Source: Azoarcus indigens (GTDB taxonomy: Bacteria > Pseudomonadota > Gammaproteobacteria > Burkholderiales > Rhodocyclaceae). Taken from it: a stretch of 54,887 bases of DNA. The DNA lies in NCBI RefSeq assembly GCF_004361735.1, contig NZ_SNVV01000028.1, positions 1-54,887 of the forward strand, read 5' to 3'. Position 1 is the stretch's first letter. Every line of letters begins with the position of its first letter. Positions 26,830-39,603 of this stretch are shown here, piece by piece. The notes beneath the pieces were generated by a model. That model saw nothing but the letters and a program-made list of their open reading frames with translations, was not told the origin of the DNA and did no database searches. The translations under genes were made by a program, and so were the position numbers.

Positions 26830-27507
26830 TCAGGCGGGGTGATGCAGGCGGTAATGCACCAGCGGGCTGCCGCGCAGGCCCCGGCCGGCCTTGGCAGCCG
26901 CCAGCAGCGAGAGGTCGATCAGCGGTTCCACCAGCACCACGCTCAGGTAGGCGGCGCCGAAGCGGGCGACTTCGCCGAGGTTGGCCGCGCCCACGCCCTG
27001 GCCATAGATGGCCCAGAAGGCGACCCAGGCGACGATGCCTCCCTGGTAGGCCAGCGACAGCTGCAGCGCCTGCTTGTAGCCGATGTCCACATAGGCGGTG
27101 TCGGCCGGGATGATCTTTTTCGCCAGCGCGGCGGCGGCGAACAGCGGCACCAGCAGGGTAGTGACGTTGATGCCGTACTGCGGCAGGTCGAAGGGGGCGA
27201 AGAACAGGCCCTGCACCAGCAGGCCGCCGGCCAGGCCGATGGCGGCGGGGGCGAGGCCGAACAGCAGCAGCAAGGTGGTGCCGAGGATGAGGTGGACTTC
27301 GGAGACGCCCACCGGGTGGTGCGGCAGCACTTCGAAGAAGCAGAACACCAGCGCGGTGGCCAGCAGGCTGCGCAGGGCCAGCGCGGCGAGGCCGTCGCGC
27401 TTGAGCATGTACAGCGCGGCCTTGGCGGTGACGCCCAGCGCGGCGGTGGCGGTGGCGTAGCTCAGCGCCATCTTGGCGCCTTCGACGATTCCGGGTTCGA
27501 TGTGCAT
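26830..27507 (-). CDS. cbiM: CbiM-type energy-coupling-factor permease (cobalt)
   Basis: 225 aa. The N-terminus MHIEPGIVEGAKMALSYATA carries the His residue after Met that CbiM proteins use to bind Co(II) with the free N-terminus. The ATG is preceded by AAGGAGAAAACCCAG. Several membrane helices follow, including GTTLLLLFGLAPAAIGLAGGLLVQGLFF and the family motif DLPQYGINVTTLLVPLF. No CbiN, CbiQ or CbiO gene is adjacent, so it is either a stand-alone importer or served by components elsewhere. Last gene of the B12 cluster, 215 bases downstream of the chelatase gene. The intervening stretch has no evident gene. Confidence 0.88.
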   Translation of the reverse strand: MHIEPGIVEGAKMALSYATATAALGVTAKAALYMLKRDGLAALALRSLLATALVFCFFEVLPHHPVGVSEVHLILGTTLLLLFGLAPAAIGLAGGLLVQGLFFAPFDLPQYGINVTTLLVPLFAAAALAKKIIPADTAYVDIGYKQALQLSLAYQGGIVAWVAFWAIYGQGVGAANLGEVARFGAAYLSVVLVEPLIDLSLLAAAKAGRGLRGSPLVHYRLHHPA

Positions 27508-27722
27508 CTGGGTTTTCTCCTTGCTGTTGTTTGCGGTTGCGGGGTGGTGCGATCAATGGCCTGCGGGCGGTGGAGTGCGTCGCAGCCGGGAAATGGGGGC
27601 TGGGTGCGAAGCGGCTGGATGGGGCTGGCGACCAAGCGCTTTTCCTTGGCCCAGGCGAGGCCGGAGGTTTGGCGGAGCGGTGCTGCCCGCCTCGGCATGA
27701 CGAAGTGAAGCGCAGCGGCGCT

Positions 27723-29527
27723 TCATGCCGCGCTCCAGTCCGCCGCCCGCAGCAGCTCGGCCTGCCAGTCGGCGGCCAGCCTGGCGGCGCGTTCGAGCCG
27801 CGGCCTGCCGTCGTCGAAGTCCACCACGGTGCAGCGGTCGGCATGGCGCGGGCGCGGCGGCAGCGGGTCGAAGCGGGCGTCGGTGAGCAGGCTGAGGGCG
27901 ATGGGCTGGGCGGCGCAGGTTTTGCGATAGCGGCGCAGCACCTCCTCCGCCAGTTGCAGCGCGGCCTGCACCGGGCTGCCGCCGCCGCCGGCCAGCGGCG
28001 CGATCCAGCGTTCGTTGTGCGCCTGGGCCTTGCGCGGCGCTTGCAGCAGGCGGGCGCCGTGGCCATCGAAGGCGATCACCGCCAGGGCCTCGCGCTTGCG
28101 GTAGCTGGCCGCGCTCCAGTCCAGCAGCAGGCCCTTGGCGAGCGCCAGCCGCTGGCCGCGCAACATGGAGGCGGAGCAGTCCAGCAGGATGCAGTGCAGG
28201 CCGGCGCTGCCTTCGGTGCGGCGACGCCGGCGCAGGTGTTCGCGCGCCAGCGGCTGGCGGCCCTTGGCGGCGAGGGTGCGCGGCCAGTCGATGCGGCTGG
28301 CGGGCAGGGCATTGCGGCGCTTGCGGCGGGAGTTGGCTGCGCGTCCGGCGGGCTCCCTGCCGGGAGCGCTGCGCCCGGCCGGACGCGTCAGGCTTTTTTT
28401 TTTGCATTGGGGTATCCCGGCGCGGCTGGCGGCTTGAGGGGTTTTAGCGCCGCGATGGCGACAGGCTGTGGCGGCAGGGCGCCCCAGTCGCCATCGTTTT
28501 CTCCGCTGTTGCCCGTGTTCCAGGCGGTGGTCTGGCCCACGGCACCGGAGGCGTTGGAGCCCCGGTTCTGTGCGGACCTCGTGTTCGCAGCGGGCGGGGC
28601 GAGGTTGTCCTGCGCATCGCCGCTGGCGGCCTTCGCCTGCGGCGGCTCGGCTGCCTCCGGCGGCACGCTGCGCCGGTGCGCCAGCACCAGTTCGGCGACG
28701 GCGGAGATGTCGGCGGCGGCGATCTCGCGGCGTCCCTGCAAGGCCGCATGGGCGCGCGCCGCGCGCAGCATCACCAGGTCGGCGCGCACGCCTTCCACCG
28801 CGGCGGCGTGGCAGCGCTCGGCGACTTCGGCGTGGGTGGCGTCGGTGTAGGGAAGGGCGGGCAGTGCGGCGCGGGCGGCGGCGATGCGGGCGGCGAGGGC
28901 GTGTTCGGCGGCCTGGTGGCGCTGGTGGAAGGCGGCGGGATCGGCGTCGAAGGCGAGGCGGGCGCGGACGATGGCCTGGCGTTCGGCCGGCGGCAGCTGC
29001 GCTTCCAGCCGCAGGAAGAGGCCGAAGCGGTCCAGCAGCTGGGGGCGCAGCTCGCCTTCCTCCGGGTTCATGGTGCCGACCAGGGCGATGCGCGCCGGAT
29101 GGGCGTGGGAGACGCCGTCGCGCTCCACCCGGTTGATGCCGCTGGCGCAGACGTCCAGCAGCAGGTCCACCAGCCCGTCCGGCAGCAGGTTCACTTCGTC
29201 GATGTAGAGCACGCCTTGGTGTGCCTGGGCGAGCAGGCCGGGGCGGAAGCGCACCTGGCCGTCCTGCAGCGCGGCTTCCAGGTCCAGGCTGCCGGCGAGT
29301 TGTTCTTCGCTGGCGCCCAGCGGAAGGTTGATGAAGCGCCCGCCGGGCAGCAGCGCCGCCAGGGCGCGGGCGCTGGTCGATTTGGCGGTGCCGCGCGGGC
29401 CTTCGATCAGCACGCCGCCGATCAGCGGGTCGATGGCGGCGAGCAGCAGCGCGGTCTGCAGCCTGTCCTGGCCATGCAGGGCGGTGAAGGGGAAGGCGGG
29501 GGGCAGCGGGGTGCTCGCAGTGTTCAT
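27723..29527 (-). CDS. chlD: ChlD-like chelatase subunit, made by -1 frameshift/slippage
   Basis: Predicted fusion of the ATPase frame (29527 to the A-run) with the frame that runs on to 27723, about 601 aa, the usual ChlD/BchD length. Order: AAA+ ATPase (1-300), Pro/Asn-rich linker (300-378), then a basic stretch and a von Willebrand A domain with the MIDAS motif D450-C-S452-A-S454 ([12 protein letters not shown]). The only ATG in the VWA frame (28164-28166) lies after the MIDAS Asp and cannot start a working domain, and the frame has no ATG/GTG/TTG between the A-run and that point. The A-run, stop codon and stem-loop form the expected switch. Its role would be to tether the ATPase ring to CobN during cobalt insertion. 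The site itself is listed separately. Confidence 0.75.
28340..28403 (-). promoter_or_regulatory. Frameshift/slippage signal: A10 run, stop, 10-bp stem-loop
   Basis: On the minus strand a run of ten A (plus-strand T at 28394-28403) is followed by GCC TGA (stop 28388-28390). Right after comes CGCGTCCGGC, which pairs perfectly with GCCGGACGCG (plus-strand 28378-28387 with 28340-28349; 28-base loop). In the 0 frame the codons read AAA AAA AAA GCC stop; one step back, or one extra A in the transcript, gives AAA AAA AAA AGC CTG and enters the VWA frame. Confidence 0.8.
28388..29527 (-). CDS. chlI: ChlI-like chelatase ATPase (0-frame product)
   Basis: Product of unshifted translation, 379 aa ending NAKKKA. 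AAA+ ATPase of the Mg/Co-chelatase type: Walker [10 protein letters not shown] at 43-51, [20 protein letters not shown], Walker [32 protein letters not shown] (sensor region), then the helical lid ([37 protein letters not shown]). It extends into an Asn/Gly/Pro-rich linker. In aerobic B12 synthesis CobN requires ATPase partners (CobS/CobT); ChlI/ChlD-like proteins fill this role in genomes lacking those. It lies 349 bases downstream of cobN. Confidence 0.9.
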
Positions 29528-29876: not shown

Positions 29877-32800
29877 TCATGCTTCCTCCAGCTTGCGTTC
29901 CGCCGCGAGCAGGTGGCGTTCCACGCGCTCGCGGTAGTCGCCCGGCGCCTGCCACAGGCCGCGCTGCATGGCTTCCAGCAGGCGTTCGCAGATTTCGCGC
30001 AGGGCGTCGGGGTTGTGCTGCTGCAGGAAGGCGCGGGTGTCGGCGTCTTCCAGGCAGGCGTCGGCGACGCGGGCGTACTGGTCGTCGCGCACGACGCGGG
30101 CGGTGGCGTCATAGGCGTAGAGGTAGTCCACCGTGGCGGCGATCTCGAAGGCGCCCTTGTAGCCGTGGCGCTTCACGCCGGCCAGCCACTTGGGGTTGGT
30201 GACGCGGGCGCGCACCACCCGGCTGATCTCTTCCTCCAGCGTGCGCACCGCCGGCGCCTGCGGGTTGCTGTGGTCGCCGAACAGCACCGTGGGCTGGCGG
30301 CCGGCGAGGTGGCGCACGGCGGCGGTCATGCCGCCCTGGAACTGGTAGTAGTCGTCGGAATCCAGCAGGTCGTGCTCGCGGTTGTCCTGGTTGTGCATCA
30401 CCAGCTCGATGCCGGCGAGGCGGCGGGCGAAGGTGTCGCGCGCCTCGCTGCCGTGGTCCTCGGCGCCGTAGGCGTAGCCGCCCCAGTTGAGGTAGGCGGC
30501 GGCGAGGTCGGCGTCGCCCTCCCAGTTGCCGCTGTCGATGAGGCCCTGCAGGCCGGCGCCGTAGGCGCCCGGCTTGGCGCCGAACACCCGGTGGCCGGCG
30601 CGGCGGCGGGCCTGCCCGGCGGGCAGCCCTTCGGCCTGCAGCGCGGCGGCTTCGGCGGCGATGCGGGCGCGGATGGGATTCACCTCCGCATCCTCGTCCA
30701 GTTCCGCCACTGCCAGCACCGCGGCGTCGAACAGGCGGATGACGTTGGCGAAGGCGTCGCGGAAGAAGCCGGAGACGCGCAGGGTGACGTCGATGCGCGG
30801 ACGGTCCAGCAGCGACATCGGCAGGATCTCGAAGTCCGCCACCCGGTGGCTGCCGTCCGCCCACTTGGGGCGCACGCCGATGAGGGCGAAGGCCTGGGCG
30901 ATGTCGTCGCCGCCGGTGCGCATGGTGGAGGTGCCCCACACCGACAGGCCGATGGCGCGCGGGTAGTCGCCGTGCTCCTGCAGGTAGCGTTCGATCATGC
31001 GTTCGGCCGAGCGCAGGCCCAGCGTCCAACTGGTCTGGGTGGGGATGGCGCGGGTATCGACCGAGTAGAAGTTGCGGCCGGTGGGCAGCACGTCCGGCCG
31101 GCCGCGGGAGGGCGCGCCGCTGGGCCCCGGCGGCACGAAGCGGCCGGCGAGGCCGCGCAGCAGTTGCTGCAGTTCCTGTGGGCCGCAGGCGTCCAGGCGG
31201 GGGCGCAGGTCGCCGTTGATGCGGGCGAGTACGGCGGTGCTGCGGGGCCAGGGGGGCGCGGTGCTTTCGCCGGTCGCGCGACTGTCCAGCCGGCCGCTTG
31301 CGTCCTCGTCCGGGCTCCCCTCTCCCCTCGCGGGAGAGGGGCTGGGGGAGAGGGGGAGGGCGGCTGCGGCGCCCTTGCGGGCGTCGCCCTCTCCCCGGCC
31401 CTCCCCTGCGAGGGGGGAGGGAGAGAATCCGGCGGGCTGCATCCGGGTTCCTGCTTCCATGCCGCTGGCAGGCAGACCCGGTTCCAGTGCGAGCTTGTCG
31501 GCAGGCAAACCCTGCTCTGGCACAGGGCCGTCGGCAGGCAGGCCGTGTTCCAGCACCTGCAGCGCCAGCAGTTCGAGGCGCTCGCGGGTGTCGCCGATGT
31601 TGCGCCATGGCCCTTCGCCTAGCGCGGCGAGCAGCGCTGGGCGCGGGCCCTGCCACGGCTGGCTCCAGTCCGCGTCCAGCGGGTCGAAACCGTCGCCCAG
31701 GCCGAGATCGGCGGCGAGCGCGCGGGTCAACCCGTCGTTGCCGCCGTGGCCGTTGCCCACCGGGTGGCGGACGAGGGCGAGCAGGGTGTCGCGGTGCAGG
31801 CGGCCTGCGGGCGAGCGGCCGAAGATGTGCAAGCCGTCGCGGATCTGGCTTTCCTTCAGCTCGCACAGGTAGGCGTCGGTGCGGTTGAGCAGGCGCTGTT
31901 CTTCCTCGGCGCTGCGCGGCGCTTCCAGGCCGAGGTCGCGGTGCAGGTCGTGGCGCAGGATGTGGGCGAGGATGCTGCGGCGCAGTTCCTCGGCGCGGCG
32001 GCCGTCCAGCATCAGCGCCTCGTAGTACTCGTCCACCTGGCGTTCGAGGTCGCGGGTGGGGCCGTAGCTTTCGGCGCGGGTCAGCGGCGGCATCAGGTGG
32101 TCGATGATGACCGCCTGAGCGCGGCGCTTGGCCTGGGTACCCTCGCCGGGGTCGTTGACGATAAAGGGGTAGAGGTGGGGCAGCGGGCCGAGGGCGATGT
32201 CCGGCCAGCATTCGCCGGACAGGGCGACGCTCTTGCCCGGCAGCCATTCCAGGTTGCCATGCTTGCCGACGTGCACCAGGGCGTCGCAGCGCCAGACTTC
32301 GCGCAGCCAGCAGTAGAACGCCAGGTAGTGGTGTGGCGGCACCAGGTCGGGGTCGTGGTAGTTGGCCAGCGGGTCCAGTTCGTAGCCGCGCGCCGGCTGG
32401 ATGCCGATGAAGACCTTGCCGCAGCGCAGGCCGGCGAGCATGAAGCGGCCCTGGCGCAGCATGGGGTCGGCCTCCGGCGCGCCCCAGCGGGCGAGGACGG
32501 CGTCGCGGCTGGCGGCCGGCAGGCGCTGGAAGAAGGCGAGGTAATCCGCCATCGCCAGGCTCTGCCGCGCCGGGCGCAGCGCCCATTGTTCCGGGTCGTT
32601 GGTGATGCCTTCCTTCAGCTGCGCCATCAGCGCGTCGCCGTCGGCCGGCAGCTCGCCCAGCGCATAGCCTTCGTCGCGCAGGGCTTCGAGGATGGCGATG
32701 ACCGAGGCCGGCGTGTCCAGGCCGACGCCGTTGCCCAGCCGGCCTTCGCGGGTGGGGTAGTTGGCCAGCACCAGGGCGAGGCGCTTGTCCGCGTTCGGCA

Positions 32801-33986
32801 GGGCGCGCAGCCGGCACCAGCGCTGCGCCAGCTCGGCGACGAAGGCGACCCGCTCCGGGTGGGCGCGGTACTGCACCACGTCGCTCTGGGTCAGCGGGTT
32901 GTGGTGGTCCAGCCCCTTGAAGCTGATGGCGCGGCTGATGATGCGGCCGTCCACTTCCGGCAGGGCGACGTGCATGGCGATGTCGCGTGGCGCCAGGCCC
33001 TGCGGGTCTTCCTGCCAGCCGGCTTGGTTGCCGCCGGAGAGGATGAGCTGCAGCACCGGCACGTCGCCGGCCAGCCCGGCGGCCGCGGCGGCCAGTTCCG
33101 CCTGCCAGCCGCCGCTGCCGGCGGCGCCGTCCGGCGTGGCCTGGGAGAAGGCGGTGGTGTTGAGGATGAGCGCCGCCTGGTGTTCGGCGCACAGGCGGCG
33201 CACGGTGGCGACGCCCACCGCGTCCTTCAGCGACAGCAGCGCCAGCGGCAGCGGGTTCATGCCGCGCGCCTGCAGCGCTTCGCACAGGTGGGCGAACACC
33301 GCGGTGTTCCCCGCCTGCAGGTGGGCGCGGTAGAACAGCAGCGGCACGCAGGGCGCGCCCGGTTGCCAGTCGGCCTGCCAGTTCTCCACGGTGGCGACTT
33401 CATGGCGCGGGTGGAACAGGGCCACCGTGGGCAGCGGCCGCGGCGGCTCCACCTGCAGCGGCTGGCCGAAGAAGGCGGCGGCGAGGTAGCGGTGGAAGTT
33501 GCGCGCGTTGGCGCCGCCGCCTTCGCGCAGGTAGCGCCACAGGGTGCGCGCGACTTCGGCGTCCACCGTGCCTTTCTGCAGCAGGTTGCGGTCTTCGCTG
33601 GTGTCGCCGGAGAACATCGCCAGGGCGATGCCGCGCGCCCGGCACAGCTCGCCGATGCGCTCGGTGCCGTAGGGCCAGTAACTCTCGCCGCCGAGGTGGT
33701 CGATGACGATGACGCGGGCGTGCTGCAGCACGTCGTCCAGGTAGAGATCCACCGAGGCCGGCTGGCGCAGGTGCAGCAGGTTGGCCAGACGCAGGGTGGG
33801 CAGGCCGAGCGTGTCTGCGTCTGTGCCGGCCTCCGCCGCCAGCTGCGACCAGGCGGCGGCGAGCAGGGCCAGCGTGGTGTCGGCCGCGCTGAGGATGACG
33901 ATGTCGGCCGGCTGCTGCGCGATGCGGGTGATCACGCCGGCGTCATCGACGAATCCGCCCGGCTGGGCGGCGAGCAGGTGCATCAC
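29877..33986 (-). CDS. cobN: CobN-like cobaltochelatase large subunit
   Basis: Porphyrinoid-binding catalytic subunit that inserts cobalt into hydrogenobyrinic acid diamide (aerobic route). 1369 aa, slightly long for the family (about 1250-1300). Characteristic stretches: [107 protein letters not shown] and [24 protein letters not shown]. The excess length is a linker at about residues 810-900 with three 11-aa units around GLPAD and an in-frame REP-like insert ([14 protein letters not shown]). Its start overlaps the end of cobW by four bases. Confidence 0.96.
   Translation of the reverse strand: [1369 protein letters not shown]
31317..31428. repeat. REP-like palindrome pair inserted in cobN
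   Basis: The first hairpin is CCCCTCTCCC (31317-31326) with GGGAGAGGGG (31332-31341). About 65 bases on is a second, CCCTCCCC/GGGGAGGG around GCG-A. The pair reads in frame through the CobN linker as [14 protein letters not shown] ... [13 protein letters not shown], the usual translation of this kind of interspersed repeat. It therefore adds about 38 residues without breaking the gene. Confidence 0.75.
31464..31562. repeat. 33-bp tandem repeat (3 copies) in cobN linker
   Basis: Units start at 31464, 31497 and 31530, each beginning G(C/T)(T/C)GGCAGGCA. Spacing is exactly 33 bases. They encode 11-residue units containing GLPA(D/S), next to the REP-like insert, and mark this linker as a tolerant, fast-changing site. 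Confidence 0.7.
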
Positions 33987-35077
33987 CCGGCCTGGGCGGG
34001 AGAGAGGGCGGCGCTTTCCAGCGCGCTGCGCAGGGTGTCGGCATCCAGTTCCTGGCCGATCAGCACCAGGTAGGTGGCCGGGGTTTCGTCGGCGCGCCAG
34101 CGGCGGTCGAAGTAGCTGTCGAAGCGGCGGCCCACGCCATGCACCACCAGCCGCATCGGCTTGTCGGCGAGGGCGACGAAGCCCTTCACCCGGAAGATGG
34201 TGTGCTGCTGCACCAGCGCCTGCAGGGTGGCGAGCAGGCGTTCGCGGTCCACCCGCGGCAGCTTGACGACGACCGAGTCGAACTCGTCATGGTCATGGTC
34301 GTGCGCCTCGCCTTCCTCGTGGTCGTGGTGGCTTTCGCGCAGGTGGATGCTGTCTTCCGAGGCGGCGCCCAGGCCCAGCAGCAAATCCAGCTCCACCTTG
34401 CCGTGCTCGCTGCTCACCAGCTTCACCTCCGGCGGCAGCTCCTCGCGCACCAGGGCTTCCACCGCGGCCAGGGCGACGGCGTCGGCGAGGTCGGTCTTGG
34501 ACAGCACCACCAGGTCGGCGGCCAGCAGCTGGTCTTCGAACAGCTCGTGCAGCGGCGATTCATGGTCCAGGTTGGGGTCGGTGCGGCGCTGGGCGTCCAC
34601 CGCTTCCGGGTTGGGGGCGAACTGGCCGGTGGCGGTGGCGGGCACGTCCACCACGGTGACCACCGCATCCACCGTGCAGGCGTTCTTGATCTCCGGCCAG
34701 TTGAAGGCTTGCACCAGCGGCTTGGGCAGGGCGAGGCCGGAGGTTTCGATGAGGATGTGGTCGATCTCGTCGCGGCGGGCGATCAGCTCGCGCATCACCG
34801 GGTAGAACTCCTCCTGCACGGTGCAGCACAGGCAGCCGTTGGCGAGCTCATAGAGCTGGCCGTTGCGCTCCTGGCCGCCCTCAACGCCATCTTCATCGCA
34901 GCCGATGCCGCAGCCGCGCAGGATTTCGCCGTCTATGCCCAGCTCGCCGAACTCGTTGACGATGACGGCGATGCGCCGGCCGCCGGCGTTGGCGAGGATG
35001 TGGCGCAGCAGCGTGGTTTTGCCGCTGCCGAGGAAGCCGGTGACGATGGTGGCGGGAATCTTGGCTTGGGTGGACAT
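33983..35077 (-). CDS. cobW: CobW-type G3E GTPase metallochaperone
   Basis: GTP-dependent metal chaperone, in this context delivering cobalt to CobN. 364 aa. Walker A GFLGSGKTT at 14-22, VNEFGELGIDG, the metal-site motif GCLCC (Cys82, Cys84, Cys85), ETSGLALPKPLVQAF, LSKTDLAD (G4-type), a His/Asp-rich loop (SHHDHEEGEAHDHDHDE, around residue 250), and a CobW C-terminal domain (IFRVKGFVALADKP, VGRRFDSYFDRRW). The gene overlaps cobN by four bases, so translation is coupled. Confidence 0.96.
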   Translation of the reverse strand: MSTQAKIPATIVTGFLGSGKTTLLRHILANAGGRRIAVIVNEFGELGIDGEILRGCGIGCDEDGVEGGQERNGQLYELANGCLCCTVQEEFYPVMRELIARRDEIDHILIETSGLALPKPLVQAFNWPEIKNACTVDAVVTVVDVPATATGQFAPNPEAVDAQRRTDPNLDHESPLHELFEDQLLAADLVVLSKTDLADAVALAAVEALVREELPPEVKLVSSEHGKVELDLLLGLGAASEDSIHLRESHHDHEEGEAHDHDHDEFDSVVVKLPRVDRERLLATLQALVQQHTIFRVKGFVALADKPMRLVVHGVGRRFDSYFDRRWRADETPATYLVLIGQELDADTLRSALESAALSPAQAG

Positions 35078-37616: not shown

Positions 37617-38536
37617 TTCGCAGCCTGCTCCAGCCGGCGCAGCCTGGCGGCGATCTCCTCCACCGCTTCCACCAGCTGCCAGTTGCTGCAGCCCCAGTCG
37701 TTGTTCTCCAGGCGGATCACCGGGCGGGCGGCGAGCAGGGCCTGCATCTGTGGATGGCGGGCGAAGCCGCCGCGGGCATAGGCGCCGTCGTTCACCAGAT
37801 TGCTGGTGATGAAGAGCTGCGGCGGATTGGCGACCACCTCTTCCAGCGCCACCCGGCCCCAGCCCTTGCGGCCGCTGTCGCTGGCATGGTTGCGCACGCC
37901 GGCGGCCTGGAATACCGCGTCCACATAGGTGCCGGCGCCGGCGGTGCCGCCGTTGGGGCGCAGGTAGAGCGCGCTGGGGCGGGCGCTGGCGGCCTGCATG
38001 CGGGCGATGCGCGCCTGCACGTCGGCGACCCGGGCCTGGGCGGCTTCGCGGCGGCCGATCTCGCCGCCTATCTTCAGCGTGCTGGTGTAGATGCCCTGCC
38101 AGTCGGTAGGGAAGGGCACGGTCACCACCCGGATGCCGTAGCGCTCGAACAGCGCCGCCTGGTGGCGGGCCTGCCAGCGGCGGGAGGCGAGCACCACGTC
38201 CGGCCGGGCGGCGATCACTTCTTCCGCGCTGCCGTCGTTGGCGGGGAAGCGGCGGGCGAGCGCGGCCTGGGAGGAGCGCCCGGTGTCCTGGCTCTTGCGC
38301 GACACCGAGACGATCTGCGCCGGATCGGCGAGGCTGAGCAGCAGGGCGTCGGCGCAGAGGTTGGTGGACATCACCCGCGGCAGCGGGGCGCCGGCGGTGG
38401 CCGCCTGGGTGAGCGGGCAGGCCGGCAGCAGCGCGAGCATCGCCGCCAGCCGCAGCCGGCCTGCGCCAGCGGCGCGCGGGTGGGCGCGGGCCGTCGCCAC
38501 GGCGGCGGAGCGGGCAGGGCGGCGTGGCCGCGTCAT
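37613..38536 (-). CDS. btuF: Periplasmic cobalamin-binding protein
   Basis: 307 aa. An Arg-rich N-terminus is followed by a hydrophobic signal segment (LAAMLALLPACPLTQAATAG), then a BtuF/FhuD-type binding fold: RVMSTNLCADALLLSLADPAQIVSVSR, IAARPDVVLASRRW, VVTVPFPTDWQGIY, LIHL-like helix replaced by LEEVVANPPQLFI, and RPVIRLENNDWGCSNWQ. The start ATG overlaps the cobO stop by one base. It delivers ligand to BtuCD. The conserved TNLCAD and WGC(S/N) stretches fit cobalamin-type rather than ferric-siderophore binding proteins, but ligand identity is inferred from the riboswitch and operon. Confidence 0.88.
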   Translation of the reverse strand: MTRPRRPARSAAVATARAHPRAAGAGRLRLAAMLALLPACPLTQAATAGAPLPRVMSTNLCADALLLSLADPAQIVSVSRKSQDTGRSSQAALARRFPANDGSAEEVIAARPDVVLASRRWQARHQAALFERYGIRVVTVPFPTDWQGIYTSTLKIGGEIGRREAAQARVADVQARIARMQAASARPSALYLRPNGGTAGAGTYVDAVFQAAGVRNHASDSGRKGWGRVALEEVVANPPQLFITSNLVNDGAYARGGFARHPQMQALLAARPVIRLENNDWGCSNWQLVEAVEEIAARLRRLEQAAK

Positions 38537-39150
38537 CAGAAGTCGATGCCGGCCTGGGCTTTCACGCCGGCCTTGAAGGCGTGCTTGCGGTCGGCGATCT
38601 CGCTGACGGTGTCGGCCAGCTCGACCAGTTCCGGCCTGGCCGCGCGGCCGGTGATGATCACCGTCTGCAGCGCCGGGCGCTGGCGGATGGCGTCGACCAC
38701 CGTGGCGGTGTCCAGGTAGTTGTACTTGAGCATGTAGGTCAGCTCATCCAGCACCACCAGGTTCACCTTCGGGTCTTGCAGCAGGCGGGTGGCGTGGGCC
38801 CAGGCTGCGTCGGCGGCACGCTTGTCGGCGTCCCAGTCCTGCGTGTTCCAGGTGAAGCCGGTGGCCATGGCGTGGTATTCCACCGCGGCGGCGGCGCTGG
38901 CCTGCTGCTGCAGGAAGATGACCTCGCCGGTGGCCTGGGTGCCCTTGATGAACTGCACCACGCCGGCGCGCTGGCCGTGGCCCAGCGCGCGGTACAGGGT
39001 GCCGAAGGCGGAGGTGGTCTTGCCCTTGCCGTTGCCGGTGATGAGCACGACGATGCCGCGCTCTTCCTGCGCGCGCTCGATGGCGGCATCCACCACCGCC
39101 TTCTTGCGCAGCATTCGCTCGTTATGGTTCTGCTTCTTTTCCTCGTCCAT
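38536..39150 (-). CDS. cobO: Cob(I)yrinic acid a,c-diamide adenosyltransferase
   Basis: Adds the adenosyl group to the corrin cobalt. 204 aa from the ATG at 39148-39150 (MDEEKKQNHNERM); GGAG lies nine bases upstream. The frame continues further upstream but without family similarity. P-loop GNGKGKTT at 39-46, VVQFIKG, TWNTQDW, VLDELTYMLKYNYLD, VIITGRAARPELVELADTVSEI: the CobA/CobO signature set. First gene after the B12 riboswitch. Confidence 0.97.
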   Translation of the reverse strand: MDEEKKQNHNERMLRKKAVVDAAIERAQEERGIVVLITGNGKGKTTSAFGTLYRALGHGQRAGVVQFIKGTQATGEVIFLQQQASAAAAVEYHAMATGFTWNTQDWDADKRAADAAWAHATRLLQDPKVNLVVLDELTYMLKYNYLDTATVVDAIRQRPALQTVIITGRAARPELVELADTVSEIADRKHAFKAGVKAQAGIDF

Positions 39151-39330
39151 CGCTCGCGGCTCCATGCGCCCCTGGGGGCGCCAGCGCGGAGTGCGGGTGG
39201 ACTGCGCATGGCCGGCGCGCAGGCGCGCAGACGAACCACGGCTGGAAACGGGAGGGCGCCCGAGGGCGCACGTAGACCGGACCAGACAGCGACAACCCAC
39301 ACCCCGGGGTAATGATCTGTAGTCGAGTCG

Positions 39331-39520
39331 GGCCGGTCTTCTGGCTCGCCTTCATCCGGAATCCGCCTGCCTTCCCGGGCGAGGCCCAGTGGCACATGTG
39401 ACTGGCGTTTCCGTCAGGCTTACAGCAGCGGGGGCTGCGCCGGACTCGCGGATGGTCTCCGCTGCACCGGACTTCCCGTTTCATCCCCGGCGCGGCAGCG
39501 CCCGGGACACCCTGATCGAA
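39331..39520 (-). ncRNA. Cobalamin (AdoCbl) riboswitch
   Basis: Read on the minus strand, the conserved parts appear in order: GATGAAACGGGAAGTCCGGTG, a GC-rich arm, GCAGCCCCCGCTGCTGTAA, GTGCCACTGGGC, CGGGAAGGCAGGCGG, and the B12 box GAGCCAGAAGACCGGCC (39331-39347). It ends about 180 bases before cobO and should repress the cobO-cbiM cluster when adenosylcobalamin is plentiful. Confidence 0.96.
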
Positions 39521-39603
39521 CCGGCGAAGGATAGGCGAAAGCCGCAAGGGCTGGCAAACGTCGCCGCGCGGCCGCGGGGGCGGAAAAGGTGGGAGCGGGG
39601 GGT

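Follow-up and report, generated by a model that had tools for sequence, protein, structure and literature searches.

We propose that a gene on the minus strand of the window, at 29527-27723, is an fs-chlD gene, in which programmed −1 frameshifting lets one gene supply both of two chelatase subunits, and we give this reading a probability of about 93%. (The window is the whole stretch of DNA analysed, 54,887 nucleotides of Azoarcus indigens.) The gene lies downstream of cobW and then cobN. An earlier note, made from the letters of the DNA, had put forward the same reading, and it is supported by the conserved slip site, stop codon and stem and by the gene neighbourhood. This kind of gene has already been published and tested in E. 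coli; what is specific here is a slip site within a run of ten A (A10).

According to the proposed mechanism, ribosomes that stay in frame would terminate one codon past the A run, releasing a 379-aa ChlI-like motor subunit, and a share of the ribosomes, paused by a stem 6 nt downstream, would slip back by one base on A_AAA_AAA and continue into a 601-aa ATPase-linker-VWA protein, the ChlD-like subunit. Both subunits would join the neighbouring CobN, to which CobW supplies the metal, in a type I cobalt chelatase. That shifting takes place in Azoarcus indigens, its rate, the joining of both proteins with CobN and the substrate are all matters that we infer.

Gene layout and the two reading frames

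The following features, all on the minus strand, make up the gene and its putative frameshift signal.

28388..29527, minus strand: 0-frame open reading frame for a 379-aa ChlI-like AAA+ ATPase (small subunit), from the ATG at 29527 to the TGA at 28388
28394..28403, minus strand: A10 run, exactly ten A, with the last in-frame slip heptamer A_AAA_AAA at 28400..28394
28388..28390, minus strand: 0-frame stop codon TGA, one codon past the slip site
28340..28387, minus strand: stem-loop with a 10-bp outer stem (28387..28378 with 28349..28340) and an inner stem, from folding and comparison
27723..28402, minus strand: −1 frame part, linker and VWA/MIDAS domain

Frame analysis bore out the claims that the ATPase frame ends in the ten-A run and that the −1 frame encodes the VWA domain. 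The 3' end of the 0 frame reads GCA AAA AAA AAA GCC TGA, and its product therefore terminates in N A K K K A. This open reading frame matched two Pfam models above their cut-offs (AAA_lid_2, 50.7 bits; Mg_chelatase, 45.9 bits) and two NCBIfam models below theirs (TIGR02442, 2.1e-119; BchI-ChlI, 5e-93). The −1 frame carries the MIDAS motif DCSAS, closes at 27723 and matched VWA_2 with 40.9 bits (cut-off 27). Joining the two frames at the A run yields an ATPase-linker-VWA protein of 601 aa that resembles the medium subunit ChlD, and the sizes given in the earlier note for shifted and normal reading (601 and 379 aa) were both confirmed. TIGR02442, a model for a putative cobaltochelatase, spans both parts: its N-terminal portion matches the ATPase part with 399.8 bits and its C-terminal portion (positions 430-582) matches the VWA part with 66.4 bits (1.8e-18), and its cut-off of 779.45 is above either score and above their sum.

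Between the run and its first ATG, at 28166, the −1 frame holds no ATG, GTG or TTG, only CTG and ATC, and this ATG falls just past the MIDAS motif, as had been claimed. The −1 frame is open from 29708 across the entire ATPase gene; this openness is no argument, because it may be expected at 68% G+C. The +1 frame is likewise open across the run to 27553 (27553-28443, minus strand), with an ATG at 28407 just ahead of the run. This open frame shows no VWA motif and is probably a product of the high G+C content, and a +1 shift was rejected as the source of the long product.

Chelatase partners and the question of the substrate

The gene sits within a cluster of cobalt and cobalamin genes, listed here from its downstream neighbour to the cluster head.

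26830..27507, minus strand: CbiM-like cobalt uptake protein, downstream (PF01891, 52.7 bits, cut-off 23.1)
29877..33986, minus strand: cobN, large chelatase subunit, the next gene upstream (TIGR02257, 1604.5 bits, cut-off 822.05)
33983..35077, minus strand: cobW, GTPase and cobalt chaperone (TIGR02475, 509.6 bits, cut-off 332.1)
38536..39300, minus strand: cob(I)yrinic acid a,c-diamide adenosyltransferase (TIGR00708, 207.6 bits, cut-off 167.75)
39314..39529, minus strand: cobalamin riboswitch, cluster head (RF00174, 101.9 bits, gathering 31.5)

The cluster head also contains a FecCD-type ABC transporter with a binding protein and an ATPase; the best match of the permease is BtuC, below cut-off, and the transporter may carry corrinoids. 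Elsewhere, cobalamin riboswitches occur near fs-chlD at three of the eight loci searched (L028, L035 and L054).

The earlier note had proposed checking that cobS, cobT and another chlI are absent, and this is what the genome search returned. CobS and CobT were each not found in the genome (for each, one of 14 controls was over the cut-off), nor was a second close ChlI: ten other matches showed 30-35% identity with E 4.7e-7 or weaker, the best of them 31% identity at E 4.7e-7. A search with the MoxR model gave matches at three places, fs-chlD among them. CobN is present in one copy, the one adjoining fs-chlD. Finding one CobN but no CobS, CobT or second close ChlI fits a single gene that supplies both partners.

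What this chelatase acts on is a separate question. CbiC/CobH (precorrin-8X methylmutase) was not found in the genome, which is 99.99% complete and in 76 contigs, and seven of 14 controls were positive in the same search. The sole notable match to CobG (L111) was below cut-off and scored better as a nitrite/sulfite reductase, also below the cut-offs, and no CobZ was over the cut-off in the genome. The Pfam CbiC model works in this group of bacteria, because with it a CbiC gene was found in Thauera sp. 28 (L030), two genes past the CbiM-like gene that follows fs-chlD. Thauera belongs to the Azoarcus-Pseudothauera-Denitromonas group, in the family Rhodocyclaceae/Zoogloeaceae. Since CbiC/CobH was not found and neither CobG nor CobZ was over cut-off, this organism may not produce the expected substrate. 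Either it has lost ring synthesis and retained the chelatase in some other role, or the ring genes have been missed.

The first of these options leads to a tentative reading, which we consider possible but doubtful: the chelatase has ceased to take part in making B12 de novo and instead inserts cobalt into a different tetrapyrrole, either a metal-free corrinoid that is imported or some other one. In addition to the search results for CbiC/CobH, CobG and CobZ and the CbiC gene detectable near fs-chlD in Thauera, the FecCD-type transporter and the B12 riboswitch at the cluster head are consistent with it, as are cobalt chelatase annotations in bacteria without most ring genes, as given in the part of PMC6461909 drawn on here. 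However, only three marker families were searched, in an assembly of 76 contigs, and the CobZ search was without a positive control (none of the 14 controls was over cut-off). A CbiX-type gene is also present in the genome, where its role could be in early cobalt insertion or in siroheme, and CobNST is described, in the portion of the literature consulted, as cobalt-specific and acting on hydrogenobyrinic acid a,c-diamide.

Sequences examined

Altogether 97 sequences were examined, the window plus 96 loci, with relatives picked by the similarity of their ATPase and not by the slip site. Sixteen loci (L012-L027) came from a family search of 297 genomes, of which 16, the organism's own included, matched at E 1e-60; the other 80 (L028-L107) came from a contig scan and are the best 80 of 569 confirmed relatives. 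Three loci taken as duplicates because their contigs are equally long were left out (L016, L017 and L023), and nine that could not be assessed as split genes were set aside: L092 and L101, which are fused; L025, L026 and L027, three loci from two genomes that are of another, BchI/BchD-like type; L019, L021 and L058, which are cut by the contig end, L019 still retaining the slip site and stem arms; and L048. In the last of these (L048:6050-6260, Cupriavidus basilensis OR16) the slip site and both stem arms are retained, but the gene is interrupted beyond the site and no VWA domain was found there. This left 85 distinct split genes, that of the window included, among the matches listed. As these genes are related, their count does not represent 85 independent events.

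Conservation of the proposed frameshift signal

Aligning the site across related genomes had been suggested in the earlier note, and the alignment revealed that run, stop and stem are conserved in the 85 distinct genes, the full stem in 73. Among the matches listed, every one of the 85 genes has its VWA domain in the −1 frame and carries an in-frame heptamer, which reads A_AAA_AAG in 54 genes and A_AAA_AAA in 31. The stop of the 0 frame comes one codon past this heptamer in 84 genes and immediately behind it in one. The run comprises 6 A in 53 of these genes, 7 A in 30, 8 A in one and 10 A in the window alone. With the stop codon placed so exactly and the stem beginning right behind it, the stop position may be part of the frameshift signal.

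As a general argument for the shift, the lack of any start codon ahead of the MIDAS motif does not hold; it is true of the window but is not a family trait: only four of the 85 genes, the window's among them, lack ATG, GTG and TTG there, making this weak evidence by itself.

The downstream stem-loop

The perfect 10-bp stem claimed in the earlier note was recovered, but it does not follow the run at once, since a spacer of 6 nt separates the two. The 64 nt past the run fold with −39.4 kcal/mol (z −3.30), and none of 200 dinucleotide shuffles was as good. The hairpin is the minimum-energy fold when 55-90 nt past the run are folded; with 100 or 120 nt, another structure has the minimum energy and the hairpin is absent. 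The case for the hairpin rests on the comparison of relatives more than on energy.

In that comparison, an 8-nt arm starting at +6 from the heptamer is fully paired, with G-U allowed, in 73 of the 85 genes, 48 of which do so without any G-U; composition-preserving shuffles (200 rounds) gave a full 8-bp stem in a mean of 3.1 and a maximum of 9 of 85. The 12 genes without the full arm form 7 pairs in 11 cases and 6 in L054. When the arm start was moved along the sequence, 44 genes had a full stem at +5 and 73 at +6, declining to 37 at +11, and at all other starts within 0 to 39 at most nine genes did. The kinship of the genes inflates the stem and site counts; the sliding control retains this kinship, and the peak persists.

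The stem arms vary by clade, with pairs altered on both sides. Among the 73 genes, position 1 of the arm is G-C in 60 and C-G in 12, and position 4 occurs as five pair types. Within the window's own group of 13 sequences (two of them identical here), two-sided changes were found in six of 14 consensus pairs; in the same alignment the outer stem is nearly invariant and the covariation term is small (−1.21).

The A10 run and its origin

By a first-order estimate, 0.0025 A10/T10 words are expected in the window. The 5.46-Mb genome has only two A10 runs, one of them the slip site, and both figures speak against a chance occurrence. The other (L108, G000:C3:43605-43614) begins in the fourth codon of a mechanically called 118-aa open reading frame on contig C3.

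A search of four genomes of the genus found one other member with the gene (L012) and no match to it in two further genomes. This sister is 91% identical over the ATPase and has the slip site GCA AAA AAA GCC TGA; the window carries exactly one extra AAA codon with the register kept, and the 62 nt past the run, stem included, are identical in both. The A10 run is therefore probably derived and real, because an error that keeps the register would need a multiple of three bases.

Could RNA polymerase rather than the ribosome be the main route to two products, with transcripts of 11 A (or 8 A) encoding the fusion and those of 10 A the short protein? The run is the longest over the 85 genes among the matches listed, and its length is in the published range for transcriptional slippage (nine or more A, in the part of that work drawn on). 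We nevertheless regard this as unlikely. Of the 84 relatives, 83 carry no more than 6 or 7 A and the remaining one carries 8; even so, the heptamer and the stop are kept and the stem mostly so, which points to the ribosome; the 62 nt past the run have not changed from the sister's; and transcripts of 9 A would lead into the +1 frame and no VWA motif. As relatives with 6 or 7 A retain the ribosomal signal, the ribosome is likely the ancestral and main agent of slippage, and at A10 slippage by the polymerase may come on top of the ribosomal shift.

A sequencing or assembly error, or a decayed gene, is very improbable: homopolymers are error-prone, which counts in favour of it, as does the A7 of the sister, but A10 is A7 plus three with the conserved register kept, the remaining signal is intact and both domains are recognised. 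That the VWA protein comes from a separate gene with its own start is hardly credible, even though in 81 of the 85 genes the VWA frame offers an ATG, GTG or TTG past the run and ahead of the MIDAS aspartate (an ATG in 15), as such a codon is missing here and in three others and the conserved heptamer and stem would be left unexplained.

Under programmed −1 frameshifting, then, the shift rate at A10 is expected to be high, because A10 falls between the published 9-A and 11-A E. coli cassettes. A wider, combined reading, which we hold to be improbable, is that one extra codon has lengthened a ribosomal slip site to A10, polymerase and ribosome together setting how much small subunit is made relative to medium subunit, and that the chelatase has been kept under a B12 riboswitch, beside a possible corrinoid importer, after the loss of the corrin-ring genes, with an imported corrinoid free of metal, or some other tetrapyrrole, as the acceptor of its cobalt.

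Comparison with known systems

The statement in the earlier note that programmed frameshifting in chlD next to cobN had been published proved correct (PMC3711429, PMC9227772, PMC5009743, in the sections drawn on here). As reported there, cassettes of the fs-chlD/magnesium-chelatase family in E. coli gave 10% of the −1 product with 7 A, 40% with 9 A and 63% with 11 A (Antonov et al. 2013, PMC3711429); A_AAA_AAR is under purifying selection and has strong structure potential (review PMC5009743, section 18); and a two-subunit model has been put forward for fs-chlD (Kuznetsov et al. 2022, PMC9227772). The gene described here shares with these 'magnesium chelatase' frameshift genes, as described in those sections, the −1 shift, an A run with A_AAA_AAR, a stop just after it and a downstream stem, as well as the cobN context and the lack of a separate small-subunit gene (chlI/cobS). 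It differs in its A10, the tested cassettes having 7, 9 and 11 A, and in an organism in which CbiC/CobH was not found and CobG and CobZ were not over cut-off. The Azoarcus-Thauera group is not named in the portions of the published fs-chlD work consulted.

With the aerobic cobaltochelatase CobNST the system has in common the large subunit CobN, CobW, and AAA+ and VWA partners; unlike it, no CobS or CobT was found here, and the ChlI/ChlD-type partners come from one gene. The dnaX gene of Thermus thermophilus, in the accounts of it drawn on, uses transcriptional slippage at A9 and is similarly an A run able to yield a short and a long product, whereas here a conserved heptamer, stop and stem are present and polymerase slippage is only a possibility. 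Evidence against the shift as a universal need comes from the two related genes in which the same order of ATPase, linker and VWA domain is fused in a single open frame without a slip site (L092, Marinomonas gallaica, and L101, an alphaproteobacterial MAG).

Implications

The gene is a well-supported further case for a known frameshift family, in which the pairing of the stem has been kept through two-sided changes between clades. Because a ring-building gene is apparently lacking, the role of an orphan cobalt chelatase becomes testable. With its A7 and A10 sites, the genus offers a natural experiment on the way run length and slippage by the polymerase set the subunit ratio.
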